Assembly (NCBI RefSeq): GCF_008119665.1
Contig: NZ_CP043046.1
Span: forward strand, 3,410,001-3,474,000
Source: Pigmentiphaga aceris
Lineage (GTDB): Bacteria > Pseudomonadota > Gammaproteobacteria > Burkholderiales > Burkholderiaceae_B
DNA length: 64,000 nucleotides
Direction: 5' to 3'
The notes beneath the pieces were generated by a model that saw nothing but the letters and a program-made list of their open reading frames with translations, searched no databases and had not been told where the DNA came from. The position numbers and the translations under genes were made by a program. Of the stretch, positions 27,004 through 34,292 are shown one piece after another (the first letter of the stretch is position 1; each line of letters starts with the position of its first letter).

Positions 27004-28407
27004 TCAGCGGAAGTTGCGCACGTCGACGAAGTGACCAGCCACGGCAGCCGCAGCGGCCATGGCGGGGCTGACCAGGTGCGTGCGACCGCCCTGCCCTTGC
27101 CGACCTTCGAAGTTGCGGTTGGACGTGGATGCACAGCGCTCGCCCGGCTCCAGCCGGTCGGCGTTCATGGCCAGGCACATCGAACAGCCGGGATCACGCC
27201 ACTCGAAGCCCGATGCCACGAAAATCTTGTCCAGACCTTCGCGTTCGGCCTGCGCCTTCACCAGACCGGAACCCGGCACGACCATGGCCAGACGCACGTT
27301 CGACGCCACACGCTTGCCACGCACCACGGCAGCTGCCGCGCGCAAATCTTCGATGCGCGAGTTGGTGCAGGAACCGATGAACACCTTGTCGATACGGATA
27401 TCAGTGATCGCCATGTTGGGCTGCAGGCCCATGTATTCCAGCGCGCGTTCCATGCCGGAGCGGCGCACTTCATCTTTTTCGCGTTCCGGATCCGGCACAC
27501 GACCGGTGACCGGCAGGACCATTTCGGGCGAGGTGCCCCAGCTGACTTGGGGGCTGATATCGCGGGCGTTGATTTCGACCACGCGATCGAATTGCGCACC
27601 CGGATCGCTGACCAGCGTGCGCCAGTAGGCAACGGCCTGATCCCACAGCACGCCGGTGGGCGCGAACGGGCGACCGCGGAAATACTCGATGGTTTTGTCG
27701 TCGACGGCGATGATGCCGGAACGAGCACCCGCTTCAATCGCCATATTGCTGACGGTCATGCGGCCTTCGATCGACAGGCCTCGCACGGCGCTGCCTGCGA
27801 ATTCGATGGCGCTGCCATTTCCGCCTGCCGTGCCGATCACGCCGATCACGTGCAGGACCAGATCCTTGGCGGTGACGCCGGCCGGCAGATCGCCTTCGAT
27901 CTTCACCAGCATGTTCTTGGACTTCTTGGTCAGCAGCGTTTGCGTGGCAAGCGTGTGCTCGACTTCAGAGGTACCAATACCAAAGGCCAGTGCACCGAAT
28001 GCACCGTGCGTGCTGGTGTGCGAGTCGCCACAGACAACCGTCATGCCCGGCAGGGTTGCGCCCTGTTCCGGTCCGATCACGTGCACGATCCCCTGGCGGT
28101 GATCGTTCATGCGGAATTCGTTGATGCCGTAGTTGCTGCAATTGGCGTCGAGCGTATCGACCTGCAGACGCGACACCGGGTCTTCAATGCCTTCAGCGCG
28201 CTTGGTGGTCGGTACGTTGTGGTCGGCCACAGCCAGATTGGCACTGATCCGCCAAGGCGCACGGCCGGCGATCTTCAGCCCTTCGAACGCCTGCGGGCTA
28301 GTGACCTCGTGCAGCAGGTGACGGTCGATGTAAAGCAAACAGGTACCGTCGGGCTCCTGGTGGACGACGTGTGCGTCCCAGAGCTTGTCGTAAAGGGTCT
28401 GTGCCAT
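27004..28407 (-). CDS. leuC: 3-isopropylmalate dehydratase large subunit
   Basis: Aconitase-family subunit carrying a 4Fe-4S cluster. 467 residues. The cluster cysteines are visible in [11 protein letters not shown] and [10 protein letters not shown], with [19 protein letters not shown] near 128-146. It heads the leuC-leuD-leuB-asd operon. leuA is not in the window. Confidence 0.97.
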
Positions 28408-28749: not shown

Positions 28750-29622
28750 TCAGGCACGCAAATGGCGCAGATGCAGCCAGCGCCACACCATGCCGCCATG
28801 CGAGCCGAAAAAGAGCGACACGGCGTATTGCACGCCCGCAGTCAACACGATGGCCGGGCCGGACGGCAGGTTGAAGTGATAGGACAGCAAGAGGCCGCCA
28901 TAAGCCGAGAACAGCGCGATCAGCATCGCCACGCCAAGCAGGCCCGGCAAGCGACGCGCCCACAGGCGCGCGGTGGCGGCAGGCAACATCATCAGCCCCA
29001 CGGCCATCAAGGTGCCCAATGCCTGAAAGCCAGCGACCAGGTTCAGCACCACCAGGATCAGGAACACCAGGTGCGCAAACGCCCCGCCGCCGCCCATGGC
29101 ACGCAGAAAATCGGTATCGAAGCTTTCGACCACCAACGGGCGATACAGCACTGCCAAGGCAATCAGCGTGATGCTGGCAACGCTTGCCAGGAACATCAGG
29201 GCCAGGTCATCAACGGCCAACACCGTGCCGAACAGAATGTGCATCAGGTCGACATTGCTGCCCCATTTGGACACCAGCAACACACCAACAGCCAATGAGA
29301 TCAGGTAGAAGGCAGCAAAACTTGCGTCTTCACGCATCTGCGTGCCGCGGGTGATCAGCCCGGCACCCAGCATGACCACCAGGCCAGCGATCAGACCGCC
29401 AATGCTCATCGCGGTCAGCGACAAGCCGAACAACAGAAAGCCGATGGCGGCACCAGGCAGCACCGCGTGGCTGAGCGCATCGCCCACCAGGCTCATGCGT
29501 CGCAGCACCAGGAACACGCCGACGGGCGCGCAGCCGAAGGCCAGCGCCAGGCAGCCGACCAGCGCGTAGCGCATGAACGAAAATTCAATGAAAGGCTGCC
29601 AGAGCAGCGCGTAAAGCGTCAT
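28750..29622 (-). CDS. Metal (zinc/manganese-type) ABC transporter permease, ABC-3 family
   Basis: 290 residues from the ATG at 29622, which overlaps the ATPase stop (ATGA). About eight to nine hydrophobic segments; RRMSLVGDALSHAVLPGAAIGF near 41-62 is the characteristic ABC-3 (ZnuB/MntB/AztB) loop, and GTLMAVGLMMLPAATARLWA near 215-235 another. It forms the membrane channel for Zn(II) or Mn(II) import. The binding-protein gene normally found beside such a permease is missing here. Confidence 0.9.
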   Translation of the reverse strand: MTLYALLWQPFIEFSFMRYALVGCLALAFGCAPVGVFLVLRRMSLVGDALSHAVLPGAAIGFLLFGLSLTAMSIGGLIAGLVVMLGAGLITRGTQMREDASFAAFYLISLAVGVLLVSKWGSNVDLMHILFGTVLAVDDLALMFLASVASITLIALAVLYRPLVVESFDTDFLRAMGGGGAFAHLVFLILVVLNLVAGFQALGTLMAVGLMMLPAATARLWARRLPGLLGVAMLIALFSAYGGLLLSYHFNLPSGPAIVLTAGVQYAVSLFFGSHGGMVWRWLHLRHLRA

Positions 29623-30398
29623 GGACGACCGGCAATAGGGGAAGAAACAGTGGCCACGGCATCGGGCCCGTCGATATCGCAGATCGGCGCATGGCCAGTC
29701 CACGTGGGCGTCATGCCATTGGCACGCAACAAGTTGGCAGGCGTCAACACGGCAGCGGTATCGCCCCAACCGATGCACTCACGTGCCATCAGCAGTGTCT
29801 GCGGGAAATGCCGGCGAACCTGTTCCATGTCGTGCAGTACCGCGATGACCGTGCGTTGCTCGCGACGCCAGTTCTGCACCACGGCAAGCAAGTCATCCGT
29901 GGTCTTGGCATCCAGTGAGGTGAACGGTTCATCAAGCAAGATGACCCGCGCATCCTGAACCAGCAAGCGCGCAAACAGAACGCGCTGAAACTGCCCCATC
30001 GACAACTCGTCGACATTGCGCGGCGCAAAGCCCGCCAAGCCGACGACATCAAGCTTGCGCTCGGCAGCCAGTCGCGCCTCGCGCGAGACGCCACGGAACC
30101 AGCCCGAGGAATGCCAGTGCCCGAGCGTGACCACGTCACCCACGGTGAGCGGGAAACTGCGGTCAAGCGAGGACTGTTGCGGCAGATAACCGATATCGCG
30201 CGGACGCAAGCCCGCCAGATCGATGCGACCATCAGAGGCCGGCAAAAGACCGACCAGCGACTTCAGCAAGGAGCTTTTGCCAGCCCCGTTGGGACCAACA
30301 ATAGCGGTCAGTTCACCCGGGACAAAGCTGCCACTGACGTGATGCACGACCGGATGCCGCCGATAGGCGACGGTGAGATTTTCAAGACGGATCGGCAT
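29619..30398 (-). CDS. Metal (zinc/manganese-type) ABC transporter ATP-binding protein
   Basis: 259 residues. Walker A GPNGAGKSS near 34-42, Q-loop YLPQQSSLD, signature LSMGQFQRVLFARLL near 132-146 (LSMGQ in place of LSGGQ, common in ZnuC/AztA-like ATPases), Walker B VILLDEPFTSLD near 155-166, H-loop VLHDM. The C-terminal 50 residues are a short domain without histidine clusters. It lies three bases after the histidine-rich peptide gene and overlaps the permease. Confidence 0.9.
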   Translation of the reverse strand: MPIRLENLTVAYRRHPVVHHVSGSFVPGELTAIVGPNGAGKSSLLKSLVGLLPASDGRIDLAGLRPRDIGYLPQQSSLDRSFPLTVGDVVTLGHWHSSGWFRGVSREARLAAERKLDVVGLAGFAPRNVDELSMGQFQRVLFARLLVQDARVILLDEPFTSLDAKTTDDLLAVVQNWRREQRTVIAVLHDMEQVRRHFPQTLLMARECIGWGDTAAVLTPANLLRANGMTPTWTGHAPICDIDGPDAVATVSSPIAGRP

Positions 30399-30401
30399 AG
30401 G

Positions 30402-30722
30402 TCAGCCCGCAATCGCCCACACGACAGCCAGCCACAGGCAGACCAGCATCGGTGCCACCAGCAACAAGCGCTGGAACACCGACAGAGAGAGCACGCTCCA
30501 GGCCATGTGTGCAGCCGGAGCCGGTGCCACATGGACGTGATGCGTGGCATGTTGCACATGGCCGGCTTGCGCACCATGCCCATGATCGTGAGCGTGATCG
30601 TGGGCATGGGTCTGAGCATGGGCATGGGCATGCGCGTGTGAATGCGAATGCCCATGGTCGTGCGAGTGTGCATCAGGCTGGGGCTTGCCAGCCTGAGACG
30701 TGTGGGTCAAGGGGTCGGTCAT
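30402..30722 (-). CDS. Histidine-rich, single-span membrane peptide of a metal transport operon
   Basis: 106 residues. Residues 19-65 contain 20 histidines, mostly as His-X repeats (HSHDHGHSHSH, AHAHAHA, HDHAHDHGHG), followed by one hydrophobic segment at about 80-104 and no further domain. The histidine part is soluble and should bind Zn(II), Ni(II), Cu or Co. The gene overlaps the M48 peptidase stop by four bases (ATGA) and is three bases before the transporter ATPase, so it is surely co-translated with both. A role as a membrane-tethered metal buffer or chaperone for the transporter is inference. I do not recognise a named family. Confidence 0.82.
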   Translation of the reverse strand: MTDPLTHTSQAGKPQPDAHSHDHGHSHSHAHAHAHAQTHAHDHAHDHGHGAQAGHVQHATHHVHVAPAPAAHMAWSVLSLSVFQRLLLVAPMLVCLWLAVVWAIAG

Positions 30723-31552
30723 TTCGGCTTATAAAGCGGCAGCACGCGCGCGGACGCTTGCTGCAGATCGGCAATACGGCTGGCTGCGGACGGATGGGTC
30801 GACAGGAATTCGGGCTGGCCTGAGCCACCGATCTTGTCCATCTTGGTCCACAAGGTAACGGCAGCGCGCGGATCGAACCCGGCACGGGCCGCCAATTCAA
30901 CACCGATACGATCAGCTTCGGTTTCGTGGGTACGGCTGTTCGGCAGATTGAAGGTGACGTCAGCCAGCTTGGACGCCATATCGGTGCTCAACTGGCTGCC
31001 GGTCACGGCGTTCAGCACATTCAGGCCAAAGCCGGTTGCCATCTGCTGCGACACGCGTTCGCGCGAGTGTTCGCGCAGGGCGTGGGCGATTTCATGGCCG
31101 ATCACTGCCGCCAGTTCATCGTCGGTGGGCTGCACTTGTTTCATGAAGCCGGTATAGACGGCGATTTTGCCGCCGGGCATGCACCATGCGTTGACTTCAT
31201 CGCTGCCGATCACATTGACTTCCCACTTCCAAGCCAAAGCGTCTTGGCGGAAGGTGCCGGTCTGTGCGATCAGGCGCTGCGCAATCGCGCGCACCCGTGC
31301 GGTTTCGGCCGCACTGGGGTTCAAGGCCGACTTGGTCTGCGCATCGGACAAGGTCTTTTGATAGAGGGTAGCGGCTTCGCCATCCAACTGTTCAGAGGAC
31401 ACCAGCGAGAACACGCGTTGCGAACGGTCGATACCGACGGTTCCCGATTGCGTGGTGTTGACGGTCTGGCAACCGGTCAGAGCAACACCGGCGAACAGCG
31501 CGGCAGCGGCCAGGCGGCGGCCGGTCAAGCGAACAGCGACATGCTTCAACAT
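30719..31552 (-). CDS. M48-family zinc metallopeptidase lipoprotein (LoiP/YcaL-like)
   Basis: 277 residues. Lipobox LTGC with C28 as the lipidated residue, so it is anchored in the envelope. The zinc-protease signature is HEIAH at 153-157, and the third ligand Glu lies in ETEAD at 210-214. Homologues degrade misfolded outer-membrane proteins. Its ribosome binding site GAGGAG overlaps the aroC stop (gap seven bases), and its stop overlaps the histidine-rich peptide gene. Being a zinc enzyme in an operon with a zinc-type importer is suggestive, but a direct link is inferred. Confidence 0.9.
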   Translation of the reverse strand: MLKHVAVRLTGRRLAAAALFAGVALTGCQTVNTTQSGTVGIDRSQRVFSLVSSEQLDGEAATLYQKTLSDAQTKSALNPSAAETARVRAIAQRLIAQTGTFRQDALAWKWEVNVIGSDEVNAWCMPGGKIAVYTGFMKQVQPTDDELAAVIGHEIAHALREHSRERVSQQMATGFGLNVLNAVTGSQLSTDMASKLADVTFNLPNSRTHETEADRIGVELAARAGFDPRAAVTLWTKMDKIGGSGQPEFLSTHPSAASRIADLQQASARVLPLYKPK

Positions 31553-31559
31553 GAACTCC

Positions 31560-32675
31560 TCAAAGGGTGGGCGATCCCGGCGCTTGGCCAGGGATCACGG
31601 GCGTGGAGACGCGGACATCGGCGCACAGCGCACGGTGTCGCAACACATGGTCGATCAAAACCAGCGCCATCAGGCTTTCGGCGATCGGCGTGGCGCGGAT
31701 GCCTACGCAGGGATCGTGCCGGCCGAGTGTCGAGACTTCAACCGGTTCTCCGGCCTTGTCGATCGACTGGCGACCGGTGCGGATGCTGGAGGTGGGCTTG
31801 ATGGCAATCGACACGGTAATGGGCTGGCCAGTGGAAATTCCACCCAGCACGCCGCCGGCGTGATTGCTGGCAAAACCAGCCGGGTTCAGCTCGTCGCCGT
31901 GTTCGCTGCCACGTTGCGCCACGCTGGCAAAACCGGCACCGATTTCCACCCCCTTGACGGCATTCAAACCCATCATGGCGTAGGCAATATCGGCGTCGAG
32001 TCGGTCATAAATGGGTTCACCCAGGCCAACCGGCACGTTCTCGGCCACGACTTCGATACGGGCACCGATGGAGTCGCCATCCCGGCGCAGTTCGTCCATA
32101 TAGGCTTCGAGCTGCGGCACGATGTCGGCGTTGGGCGCGTAGAACGGATTTTCCGGCACGGCATCCCAGCTGGCGAACGGAATTTCAATCGGGCCGAGCG
32201 CGCTCATGTAGCCGCGCACCTGCACGCCGTAATGTTCCTTCAACCACTTGCGAGCGATGGCACCGGCAGCAACCGTCGGCGCGGTCAGACGGGCCGAAGA
32301 CCGGCCACCGCCGCGCGGGTCGCGCACGCCGTACTTGTGCCAGTAGGTGTAGTCGGCATGGCCGGGACGGAAGGTCTCGGCGATGTTGCCGTAGTCCTTG
32401 CTGCGCGCGTCCTGGTTGCGGATCAGCAGTGCAATGGGCGTACCGGTGGTCACGCCCTGGTAGACGCCGGACAGAATTTCAACCTGATCGGGTTCTTGTC
32501 GTTGCGTGACGTGACGCGACGTGCCCGGACGGCGGCGATCCAATTCGAACTGAATGTCGGCTTCGGAAAGCGCCAATCCCGGAGGGCAACCATCTACCAC
32601 GCAACCGATGGCCGGACCGTGGGATTCACCAAAATTCGTGACGCGAAACAATTCGCCTAATGTGCTGCCAGCCAT
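31560..32675 (-). CDS. aroC: Chorismate synthase
   Basis: Last step of the shikimate pathway, EPSP to chorismate, needing reduced FMN. 371 residues from the ATG at 32675. Family motifs: [18 protein letters not shown] near 16-33, [11 protein letters not shown], and [11 protein letters not shown]. It is the first gene of the tight unit aroC - M48 peptidase - His-rich peptide - ABC ATPase - permease. A perfect dyad lies 27-55 bases upstream. Confidence 0.96.
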
Positions 32676-32778: not shown

Positions 32779-34032
32779 CTATTGCTGGGGAGCCAGCACC
32801 TGCCAGATGCCCTGGTCGTCCCGGCACGCCACGCCTTCTGCGCGCTCGGTATTGCCATCGACAGTCACTACCTGTTCAAACACACGGCAATACCTGCCAT
32901 CTACCGCGTCGTAGGCACGGGTGGTCTGAACCGTACCGCGTGCGCCACGCAGCGACCAGGCAATGCGCTGACCAACCTGCGCTTCGCTGGCAGCAATCTG
33001 TGCGTCTTCCAGCGCTCGCTGCTGGTCGTCATCCAACTGCGACAGCAGGGGCGTGGTGATCGCCGAGAAGCCGATCCAGCGATAGGCTTCTTCATCGGTC
33101 ACGTAGCGCCCATAGCCCGGATACCAGCCGCCGTAAGGCCGCAAGATAGGCACTTCACGGTAGTAGCGGATACGCGTGTCCGGCACCTGGAACGGCCGCC
33201 CGCCCACGTAGACGTAATACAGACCACTGCGGCTGTAGCTCGGCGGGGACGAATTGATCACCACCCCGCCCGAATACACCGGCGGCGTGTAGTAACGCGG
33301 GGGTGGCGGTGGCGGCGGACGATGGTAGTAATCGGCCCCCGCCCCTTCCCAATAACCACCACGATTGTCGTAACGGTTGTCATGGCGATAGTCGGGCCAG
33401 TTGCCTCGGTTGTCGCGCCAGTCGTCGCGTCGATAGTCCCGGCGATCATCGCGCCGATATTCACGGCGGTCGTCCCGGCGATTTTCCTGCCGATACTCTT
33501 GCCGGAATTCCTGGCGACCACCGCCACCGTAAGACGGCGGATTGGGACGCGAAGGCGGCGTGTAGGCAGGCTGCGACGGACGCGACGGCTCGGGGCGGAC
33601 ATACTCCGGCGCACGTGGCGGAGGATCAGGACGGGAAAACGCACCCGAACCGCGATAGGTATCCGGACCACGCGGTGGCGGGTCGGGACGCGAGAACGCA
33701 GGTTGCGGCGCGCTTGGGCGCGGCTGGGACATGACCGGCGCAGCCGGACGCGGCGGTGGTGCAGGACGAGATGTAGCCGGCGGCGGCGGTGGTGATCCAC
33801 CACGTCGGCCACCAGGCACGCCCTGGGATTCGCCAGCCATCGGGGGCGGCGGGTCAGCCGATGAAAATGCCTGGGCGTGTGCCGAATCGTGGATTGATAC
33901 GAACGCTGCCGCCAAGGCAGCCGTCACGCAGATCAGACGCAGCGTGTGATGGCGCTCGGCCACGGCAGAGGCAGTGAGCAACGCGCCACGAGATCGGCTA
34001 TCCACCACGACGGTTTTGATATTGTTTTTCAT
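32779..34032 (-). CDS. Exported Pro/Arg-rich protein with a 17-kDa surface-antigen-like C-terminus
   Basis: 417 residues from the ATG at 34032. An extended N-region of about 30 residues precedes the hydrophobic segment (about 32-47) and an AHA cleavage site near 53. Next come three repeats of AFSxxDPPPxxP in a Pro-rich region (about 55-165), then an Arg/Asp/Tyr-rich stretch (RRDDRREYRRDDRRDYRRDD). A Tyr/Pro-rich region with YYVYVGGRPFQVP follows. The last 60 residues (VQTTRAYDAVDGRYCRVFEQ ... AEGVACRDDQGIWQV) match the pattern of the 17-kDa surface antigen/SlyB-type C-terminus, including its two cysteines. Export is likely; function unknown. Confidence 0.78.
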   Translation of the reverse strand: MKNNIKTVVVDSRSRGALLTASAVAERHHTLRLICVTAALAAAFVSIHDSAHAQAFSSADPPPPMAGESQGVPGGRRGGSPPPPPATSRPAPPPRPAAPVMSQPRPSAPQPAFSRPDPPPRGPDTYRGSGAFSRPDPPPRAPEYVRPEPSRPSQPAYTPPSRPNPPSYGGGGRQEFRQEYRQENRRDDRREYRRDDRRDYRRDDWRDNRGNWPDYRHDNRYDNRGGYWEGAGADYYHRPPPPPPPRYYTPPVYSGGVVINSSPPSYSRSGLYYVYVGGRPFQVPDTRIRYYREVPILRPYGGWYPGYGRYVTDEEAYRWIGFSAITTPLLSQLDDDQQRALEDAQIAASEAQVGQRIAWSLRGARGTVQTTRAYDAVDGRYCRVFEQVVTVDGNTERAEGVACRDDQGIWQVLAPQQ

Positions 34033-34292
34033 GTCCACCCGCCTATCGTTAATGCCGAACTCCGTCACGGCACCATGTTGCCGTGTACCTGCAGCATTGG
34101 CTGCAGATTGCAGATTACTGGCGCACGGGTGCAGACAGGATGGCGAATCCGTGAAGAAAAGTGGCGACTCTGTGGAGAATCGCACCGCGTTGATACATGT
34201 TCGCCCGACCTTTGCTGTCGTGACGCTTGCTGTCGCGTATTGCGCAGGGCCTGAGGCGGGGCCCGCATATCGCGTACCCGCCTGCTACCTCA

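Follow-up and report, generated by a model that had tools for sequence, protein, structure and literature searches.

Within a stretch of 64,000 nucleotides from the Pigmentiphaga aceris genome (contig NZ_CP043046.1, positions 3,410,001 to 3,474,000; hereafter the window), a five-gene row on the minus strand runs aroC, an M48 metalloprotease gene, a gene for a His-rich membrane peptide, and the ATPase and permease genes of an ATP-binding cassette (ABC) importer. Our reading, to which we give a probability of roughly 0.78, is that the last three genes belong to a split zinc importer of the Zni/Azt type, and that such importers have, as a standard component, a conserved single-span microprotein of which the window peptide is the long form. 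The original prediction, made from the letters of this stretch, had treated the five genes as one unit, in which the peptide would collect zinc for an importer lacking its binding protein and the metal would load the protease. Its gene order, its gaps of 7, -4, 3 and -4 bases and its count of 20 His in 47 residues were reproduced when the sequence was read again, and the peptide does belong with the importer, as a member of an ATPase-adjacent family found across this importer type; what had been missed is that, judged by sequence comparison, the membrane segment of the peptide is a conserved family of this importer type generally. The five-gene arrangement itself is largely a matter of position, and the binding protein is encoded apart.

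Results

The small protein forms a family, holds its position beside the ATPase gene, is specific to this importer type and is under coding selection. The comparison covered 101 loci (20 relatives, 80 named loci and the window), in which two pairs lie on the same contig (L091 with L042, and L127 with L046); the duplicates L091 and L127 are counted in both totals out of 101 given below, were left out of the cross-validation, substitution-rate and permease-tree sets and, together with L110, whose ATPase lies at a contig end, out of the spacing, topology and upstream-motif counts. In related loci a short one-helix protein recurs immediately ahead of the ATPase: in 97/101 an open reading frame (ORF) stops close to the ATPase start, with W-x(3-5)-W-A/S/T towards its own end, and a profile of 94 cores, trained on cores from these same loci, found a match in place in 100/101 at an expectation value (E) below 0.01, the exception having its ATPase at a contig end. 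The best match of this profile elsewhere, among 36,569 six-frame segments, had an E of 0.16. The Trp pair encloses exactly four residues in all 94 distinct cores, Arg occupies one position in 88/94 and Leu precedes the first Trp in 88/94; among 17 aligned members Arg85, Leu96, Trp97 and Trp102 are invariant, and the helix follows the pattern Arg-(10 residues)-Leu-Trp-(4 residues)-Trp-Ala. In L046/L127 the small protein occupies an open frame of just 30 residues, and the W-W pattern search missed both.

In cross-validation, a model trained on 20 cores, those of the order-level loci and the window, recovered 59, 64, 69 and 76 of 78 named loci at E below 0.001, 0.01, 0.1 and 1, respectively, with 0, 0, 0 and 2 matches elsewhere, while training on 74 named cores recovered 16, 18, 19 and 21 of 21 at the same thresholds. 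Thirteen Rhizobiaceae cores recovered 25, 35, 44 and 57 of 86, with 0, 0, 0 and 1 matches elsewhere. A model trained without the window still matched its peptide (E<0.001), and in the six new loci L200-L205 the best match was in place in 6/6, at E 4.1e-10 to 0.16. When 61 whole genomes were scanned with profile A2, 28 matches were found at E<=0.001, 27 of them adjoining an importer, and the small protein of the window scored 3.0e-7; 28 of the 30 genomes with a permease at least 46% identical had a match in place (E<=0.00124), and in G029 and G024 it was found with a larger profile (E 3.8e-6 and 0.16). No small protein was detected at any of 15 Mnt/Znu-type loci, 14 of them from related genomes and one being the Mnt operon of the P. 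aceris genome itself. A Rhizobium-type small protein searched against plasmids by tblastn gave no match, although profile matches exist on plasmids; single short queries are therefore blind here.

By annotation the small membrane protein is conserved but apparently unnamed. The window peptide belongs to no Pfam or NCBIfam family; for 17 members the lowest E was 0.15 in Pfam, 0.019 in NCBIfam (one member) and 0.68 in the PDB, none of these matches being credible. A protein search returned 278 relatives at E<=1; among the 120 listed, those that carry a source name are called 'hypothetical' or 'uncharacterized' save for three stray names. Over the 30-codon core the ratio of nonsynonymous to synonymous substitution rates (dN/dS) was 0.32 in frame against 1.41 and 1.60 off frame (116 pairs of loci, the pairs not being independent). 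Taking the in-frame ATPase start nearest to the stop of the small gene, that start lies within -7 to +9 of the stop in 96/96 loci, and the two overlap by four bases in 67/96.

The window peptide has 106 residues, 22 of them His, with a single hydrophobic stretch at its C-terminus; AlphaFold2 gives a single helix at 82-105 (block mean predicted local distance difference test score of 93-97), and residues 1-60 score 52-62. Across 96 proteins the mean number of Lys plus Arg is 2.48 just before and into the core versus 0.15 after the helix, and since positive charges thus precede the helix, the N-terminal His tail is, by the positive-inside rule, most likely cytosolic. At least five tail His occur in 16/96 members and fewer in the other 80. 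Because ten database relatives of the window peptide (84-112 aa) keep the helix nearly constant while the length and the His number of the tail vary, it is the helix that would be constant, the His tail being optional, probably cytosolic and a variable add-on, and predicted to bind zinc. A His run stands on the N-terminus of the ATPase instead in three Chitinimonas loci (L093, L094 and L042), and on its C-terminus in five loci.

The genome that carries the window consists of one contig of 6.17 Mb. Its four larger operon proteins matched chorismate synthase, Peptidase_M48, ABC_tran and ABC-3 in Pfam, the permease by PF00950 at 181.7 bits and the ATPase by PF00005 at 87.9 bits. The ATPase contains GPNGAGKSS, LSMGQFQR and VILLDEP, which we take to be its Walker A, signature and Walker B motifs, respectively. 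The assignment to a zinc-type ABC-3 importer held: the best models are AztA, AztB and AztC, and the relatives are ZniCBA and AztABCD. That the importer lacks a binding protein was correct for the operon but not for the genome, in which a check for a znuA homologue elsewhere found two proteins of the ZnuA family, the first encoded in a complete operon of Mnt type (4.436-4.440 Mb) and the second alone, by an orphan gene of AztC/ZnuA type 1.77 Mb from the operon. The orphan protein carries a loop rich in His and histidines that resemble a binding site (GDAHVFQP, DPHAWQ, SHDAF), and its best NCBIfam model is AztC, at 302.1 bits with a cut-off of 350. Within the genus, 3/11 genomes have the permease, and the same three have a binding protein of this type; two importer-bearing congeners keep binding protein, ATPase and permease in one operon, and a tree of 70 binding proteins from selected loci places the orphan as sister to the operon copies of these two (support 99/94). 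An importer without a binding protein was rejected on these grounds (the orphan is present, is sister to the congeners' copy and co-occurs with the permease). Since the orphan is sister to operon copies and shares its three genomes with the permease, an ancestral one-operon importer was most likely split in this genome, which makes the split arrangement 1/3 among importer-bearing genomes of the genus, and the orphan would serve this permease. The binding-protein gene adjoins the permease in 19/20 relatives, the exception ending at a contig edge, and in 74/80 named loci. Two of the six named loci without an adjoining gene (L113 and L160) lie within 2 kb of a contig end. In L124, L134, L145 and L146 no binding-protein match was found within 3.5 kb, with no contig end nearby; unlinked binding proteins may occur in other loci too.

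In 9/10 congeners aroC and the M48 gene are adjacent and leuC comes 177-348 bases after them; the tenth, G010, has no close M48. In the window the genes for the peptide, the ATPase and the permease sit between M48 and leuC, the small-protein gene overlapping the M48 stop by four bases. Because the congeners run aroC-M48-leuC and the importer genes lie between here, the link of aroC and M48 to the importer is positional. The importer is absent from 8/10 congeners, and a functional tie to the protease or to aroC, as originally proposed, was not seen, seven of these eight keeping aroC-M48. The suggested check of other genomes for co-occurrence of the five genes found neither aroC nor M48 in the stretch fetched for any of the 80 named loci; among the 20 relatives aroC was present in none, and the only M48 match (29%) is in L043, some 2.9 kb away from the ATPase ORF. 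A functional unit with M48 and aroC was thus rejected on the neighbours in congeners and other loci. A mobile element behind the insertion was unsupported as well: no long repeat flanks it, and its G+C content, 61.7-63.2%, compares with 58.2-64.7% in the surroundings.

In a permease tree of 140 rows, built by a quick method with support from the Shimodaira-Hasegawa-like approximate likelihood ratio test (SH-aLRT) only, rows were labelled as having the small protein at E<1, so that L203 (0.75) and L223 (0.17) are included; L210 was left out. The 15 Mnt/Znu controls, whose permeases are 28-33% identical, stand apart (SH-aLRT 100), and the window permease groups with those of congeners and Chitinibacteraceae (100). 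The AztABCD rows are another clade (100), and it holds 10 of the 13 rows without a small protein; nine of these ten bear the NCBI names aztA and aztB, and AztD is annotated in the fetched stretch of six. This clade is nested among small-protein rows, next to four of them (98), of which L223 is a weak match, and because of that nesting the simplest reading of the tree is a single loss of an old component, in the AztABCD line. The remaining three negatives are L110 (ATPase at a contig end), L213 (no ATPase annotated beside it) and L215 (long branch). At the AztABCD locus of a Klebsiella plasmid (L210) the small protein was not found.

Leaving out the window's own locus, the commonest upstream 10-mer (19 of 95 regions) is half of the palindrome TATGTTATAACATA, which we take to be the Zur box, and with a matrix of this Zur-box-like site 45/95 regions scored above the 99th percentile of 413 background windows. 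The best such site in the 10 kb around the window operon reached 5.6 bits, about the 95th percentile of the background, and the box of this genus may differ. A COG0523-type GTPase lies within 3.5 kb in 34/80 named loci and a Zur-like gene in 20/80. No match to ZIP (PF02535) was found in the P. aceris genome, whereas 10/10 congeners have at least one, so that among the ABC-3 and ZIP classes the split importer may be the main recognised zinc importer of this genome.

Discussion

The small protein is best read, on its sequence features, as an accessory subunit. Lying between aroC-M48 and leuC, the genes at 28750-30722 would encode the membrane portion of a zinc ABC importer of the Zni/Azt type, and the periplasmic binding protein would be supplied from the lone gene at G000:C1:1670342-1671322. 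The helix may pack against the permease and steady or tune the complex, as KdpF, CydX and AcrZ do for theirs, and the N-terminus would then sit in the cytosol beside the ATPase; where it is His-rich, it could bind zinc as the metal leaves the transporter, buffering it or slowing the pump. We infer both the contact with the permease and the role of the tail.

Several observations weigh against this reading. The W-W-A columns of the profile are partly imposed by the pattern that collected the training cores, and the low recovery from Rhizobiaceae cores goes with how fast such short sequences diverge. L203 is weak (E 0.16 in one scan and 0.75 in another), one of the whole-genome matches at E<=0.001 (in G052) is not beside an importer, and L213 and L215 have a permease with no small protein detected. 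The component is dispensable in the AztABCD branch (0/10), where the system works. Metal binding cannot be the common function of the family, since few members are His-rich. Searches at the window cassette, at the orphan binding-protein gene and at zur revealed no Zur-like box.

It is conceivable that the small ORF is a translated leader, coupling or regulating translation of the ATPase gene while its peptide has no function: stop and start overlap by four bases in 67/96 loci, a Zur-like box lies upstream in 45/95, and in two Klebsiella loci the small ORF is the first behind that box. Yet a leader needs neither sequence conservation nor in-frame selection nor a charge pattern, whereas here the amino-acid sequence is conserved beyond position (Arg in 88/94 cores), dN/dS is 0.32 in frame only and the charges around the helix are consistent over 96 proteins, so we regard a leader as unlikely. 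Alternatively, activity could reside in the His tail, which would accept or sense zinc in the cytosol and trans-inhibit the pump when the metal is abundant, with the helix a mere anchor. His runs do recur on cytosolic ends (the small-protein tail in 16/96 members, the ATPase N-terminus in three loci and its C-terminus in five), but 80/96 members have fewer than five tail His while the helix is the conserved part, and the ten database relatives vary the tail and keep the helix nearly unchanged; this we find doubtful, if by no means negligible.

The periplasmic role first proposed for the peptide, collecting zinc in place of or beside ZnuA and thereby loading the M48 protease, drew on its 20 His in 47 residues, on M48 being a zinc-enzyme family and on the translational overlap with the M48 gene in the window. 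It now seems scarcely credible: a binding protein exists, co-occurs with the permease (3/11 genomes) and adjoins it in 19/20 relatives, positive residues precede the helix, no signal peptide is evident by eye, and the charge pattern most likely places in the cytosol the His segment that had been assigned to the periplasm; moreover, 80/80 named loci are without an aroC or M48 match in the stretches fetched, among 20 relatives only L043 has a distant M48 match and none has aroC, and aroC-M48 stands importer-free in seven congeners. As for the metal, the zinc label would be wrong if the transporter imported manganese or iron, and ABC-3 proteins include Mn and Fe importers. Possible Mn transport has also been raised for ZniCBA in an excerpt of PMC10797113. 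We hold this very unlikely, given that the genome has a separate full Mnt-type operon, that the best models are AztA, AztB and AztC, that a COG0523-type GTPase or a Zur-like gene lies nearby in 34/80 and 20/80 loci, respectively, and that the relatives ZniCBA and AztABCD are published zinc importers, in both cases by test, according to the available excerpts (PMC10797113, PMC7731109).

Set against known systems, the importer proposed here shares its type of permease and ATPase with ZniCBA of Klebsiella pneumoniae (PMC10797113) and Rhizobium leguminosarum (PMC12183173), which is described as a zinc importer of three genes, the small ORF being unmentioned in the excerpts of both papers. The Klebsiella ZniCBA locus, flanked by mltB and pncC, carries a small ORF behind a Zur-like box, of 35 residues and 16 bases after the box in both records (E 9e-8 and 4e-9), and in K. 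aerogenes it is annotated as uncharacterised (VDZ62730.1) and overlaps the ATPase start by four bases. The Zur motif placed 153 base pairs upstream of zniC (PMC12183173, excerpt) leaves room for a 40-codon ORF. The window differs from ZniCBA in its unlinked binding protein, the place of the cassette in the aroC-M48-leuC row, the long His tail and the lack of a Zur-like box. AztABCD of Paracoccus denitrificans (PMC7731109, excerpt) provides the best NCBIfam models for all three subunits and falls in the same tree subfamily, but the scores lie under all three equivalog cut-offs (213.4/220, 264.2/280 and 302.1/350 bits), and the window has a small protein and falls outside the AztABCD clade, whose 10 rows have none; Paracoccus AztD, as a single query with no positive control, found no match in the P. 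aceris genome. With ZnuABC and MntABC the importer has in common the ABC-3 superfamily and cluster A-I binding proteins; it scores below the cut-offs of the ZnuABC equivalogs (ZnuB 82.7 of 284, ZnuC 86.4 of 306 and ZnuA 84.3 of 268 bits) and, unlike these types of loci (0/15), has a small protein beside it. Binding proteins encoded away from their permease are known from the zinc substrate-binding proteins of Streptococcus and from Listeria ZurAM with lmo1671 (PMC7731109, excerpt), from which the window differs in that two congeners keep the one-operon arrangement.

KdpF and CydX, both short membrane proteins, each accompany a larger complex and tune it. AcrZ and MgtS, and also LucB, which belongs to a mycobacterial ABC lipid importer (PMC10710835), likewise resemble the window peptide as short membrane proteins tuning a larger complex; in the excerpts available none of the five is described with a zinc ABC importer, and their comparison with the small protein went through Pfam, NCBIfam and PDB searches only. 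Among the entries listed by searches of open-licence literature, no title or abstract opening dealt with a small subunit of a zinc ABC importer.

More broadly, and tentatively, for the odds seem to us a little against it in its full form, Zni-type importers of alpha-, beta- and gammaproteobacteria may have an overlooked fourth subunit, a single-span protein of about 35-112 residues, ancestral to the subfamily and lost in the AztABCD branch that includes the Paracoccus system, whose cytosolic tail can become a His-rich zinc acceptor or sensor. If this were true, a His-rich tail at the exit of the pump would let the importer buffer its own zinc or trans-inhibit itself. Bacteria short of zinc need such importers, which have been studied as machines of three parts; were almost every examined member of a widespread type to have a conserved fourth, the way they are cloned, purified and solved structurally would change, and studies of Zni operons may unknowingly have kept or cut the small ORF. 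The split locus would also mean that the membrane subunits of a zinc importer can reside among housekeeping genes, with the usual Zur-like box missing, in a genome in which no ZIP importer was found.

Features of the locus

The coordinates are collected in Table 1. The M48 protein contains HEIAH as well as LTGC, the latter resembling a lipobox.

Table 1. Genes and segments of the importer locus and of the unlinked binding-protein gene (window positions unless a contig is named)
Feature	Position	Strand	Basis or remark
Small protein with one membrane span (106 aa), His-rich form within the microprotein family	30402-30722	-	Matched at E<0.001 by a profile from which it was excluded
Conserved core of the small protein, residues 76-106	30405-30497	-	Alignment of 17 members, 94 cores
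His-rich tail, residues 19-65, 20 His in 47	30528-30668	-	Variable among database relatives
ATPase subunit, closest NCBIfam model AztA	29619-30398	-	213.4 bits, cut-off 220
Permease subunit, closest NCBIfam model AztB	28750-29622	-	264.2 bits, cut-off 280
Orphan AztC/ZnuA-type binding-protein gene	G000:C1:1670342-1671322		PF01297 at 1670414-1671307, E 6.6e-85
aroC, chorismate synthase	31560-32675	-	Pfam/NCBIfam; host gene of the insertion
M48 metalloprotease, lipoprotein-type signal	30719-31552	-	Pfam/NCBIfam; host gene of the insertion, adjoins aroC in 9/10 congeners
leuC	27004-28407	-	Downstream border of the inserted cassette; follows M48 in the nine congeners having this M48

In many relatives a zur-like gene, a COG0523 GTPase gene and dksA adjoin the importer; in the P. 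aceris genome the same three stand in a row at G000:C1:617 kb (L064, 2942-5172), with importer genes absent in 6.5 kb. A weak and partial fourth ABC-3 match (21.8 bits, cut-off 20.1) lies in another open frame at G000:C1:3306350-3306781 (L008). Beside aroC, at 32779-34092 of the window, a Pro/Arg-rich, secreted-looking protein is encoded, with a weak C-terminal match, below the cut-off, to PF16998 (17 kDa antigen family).

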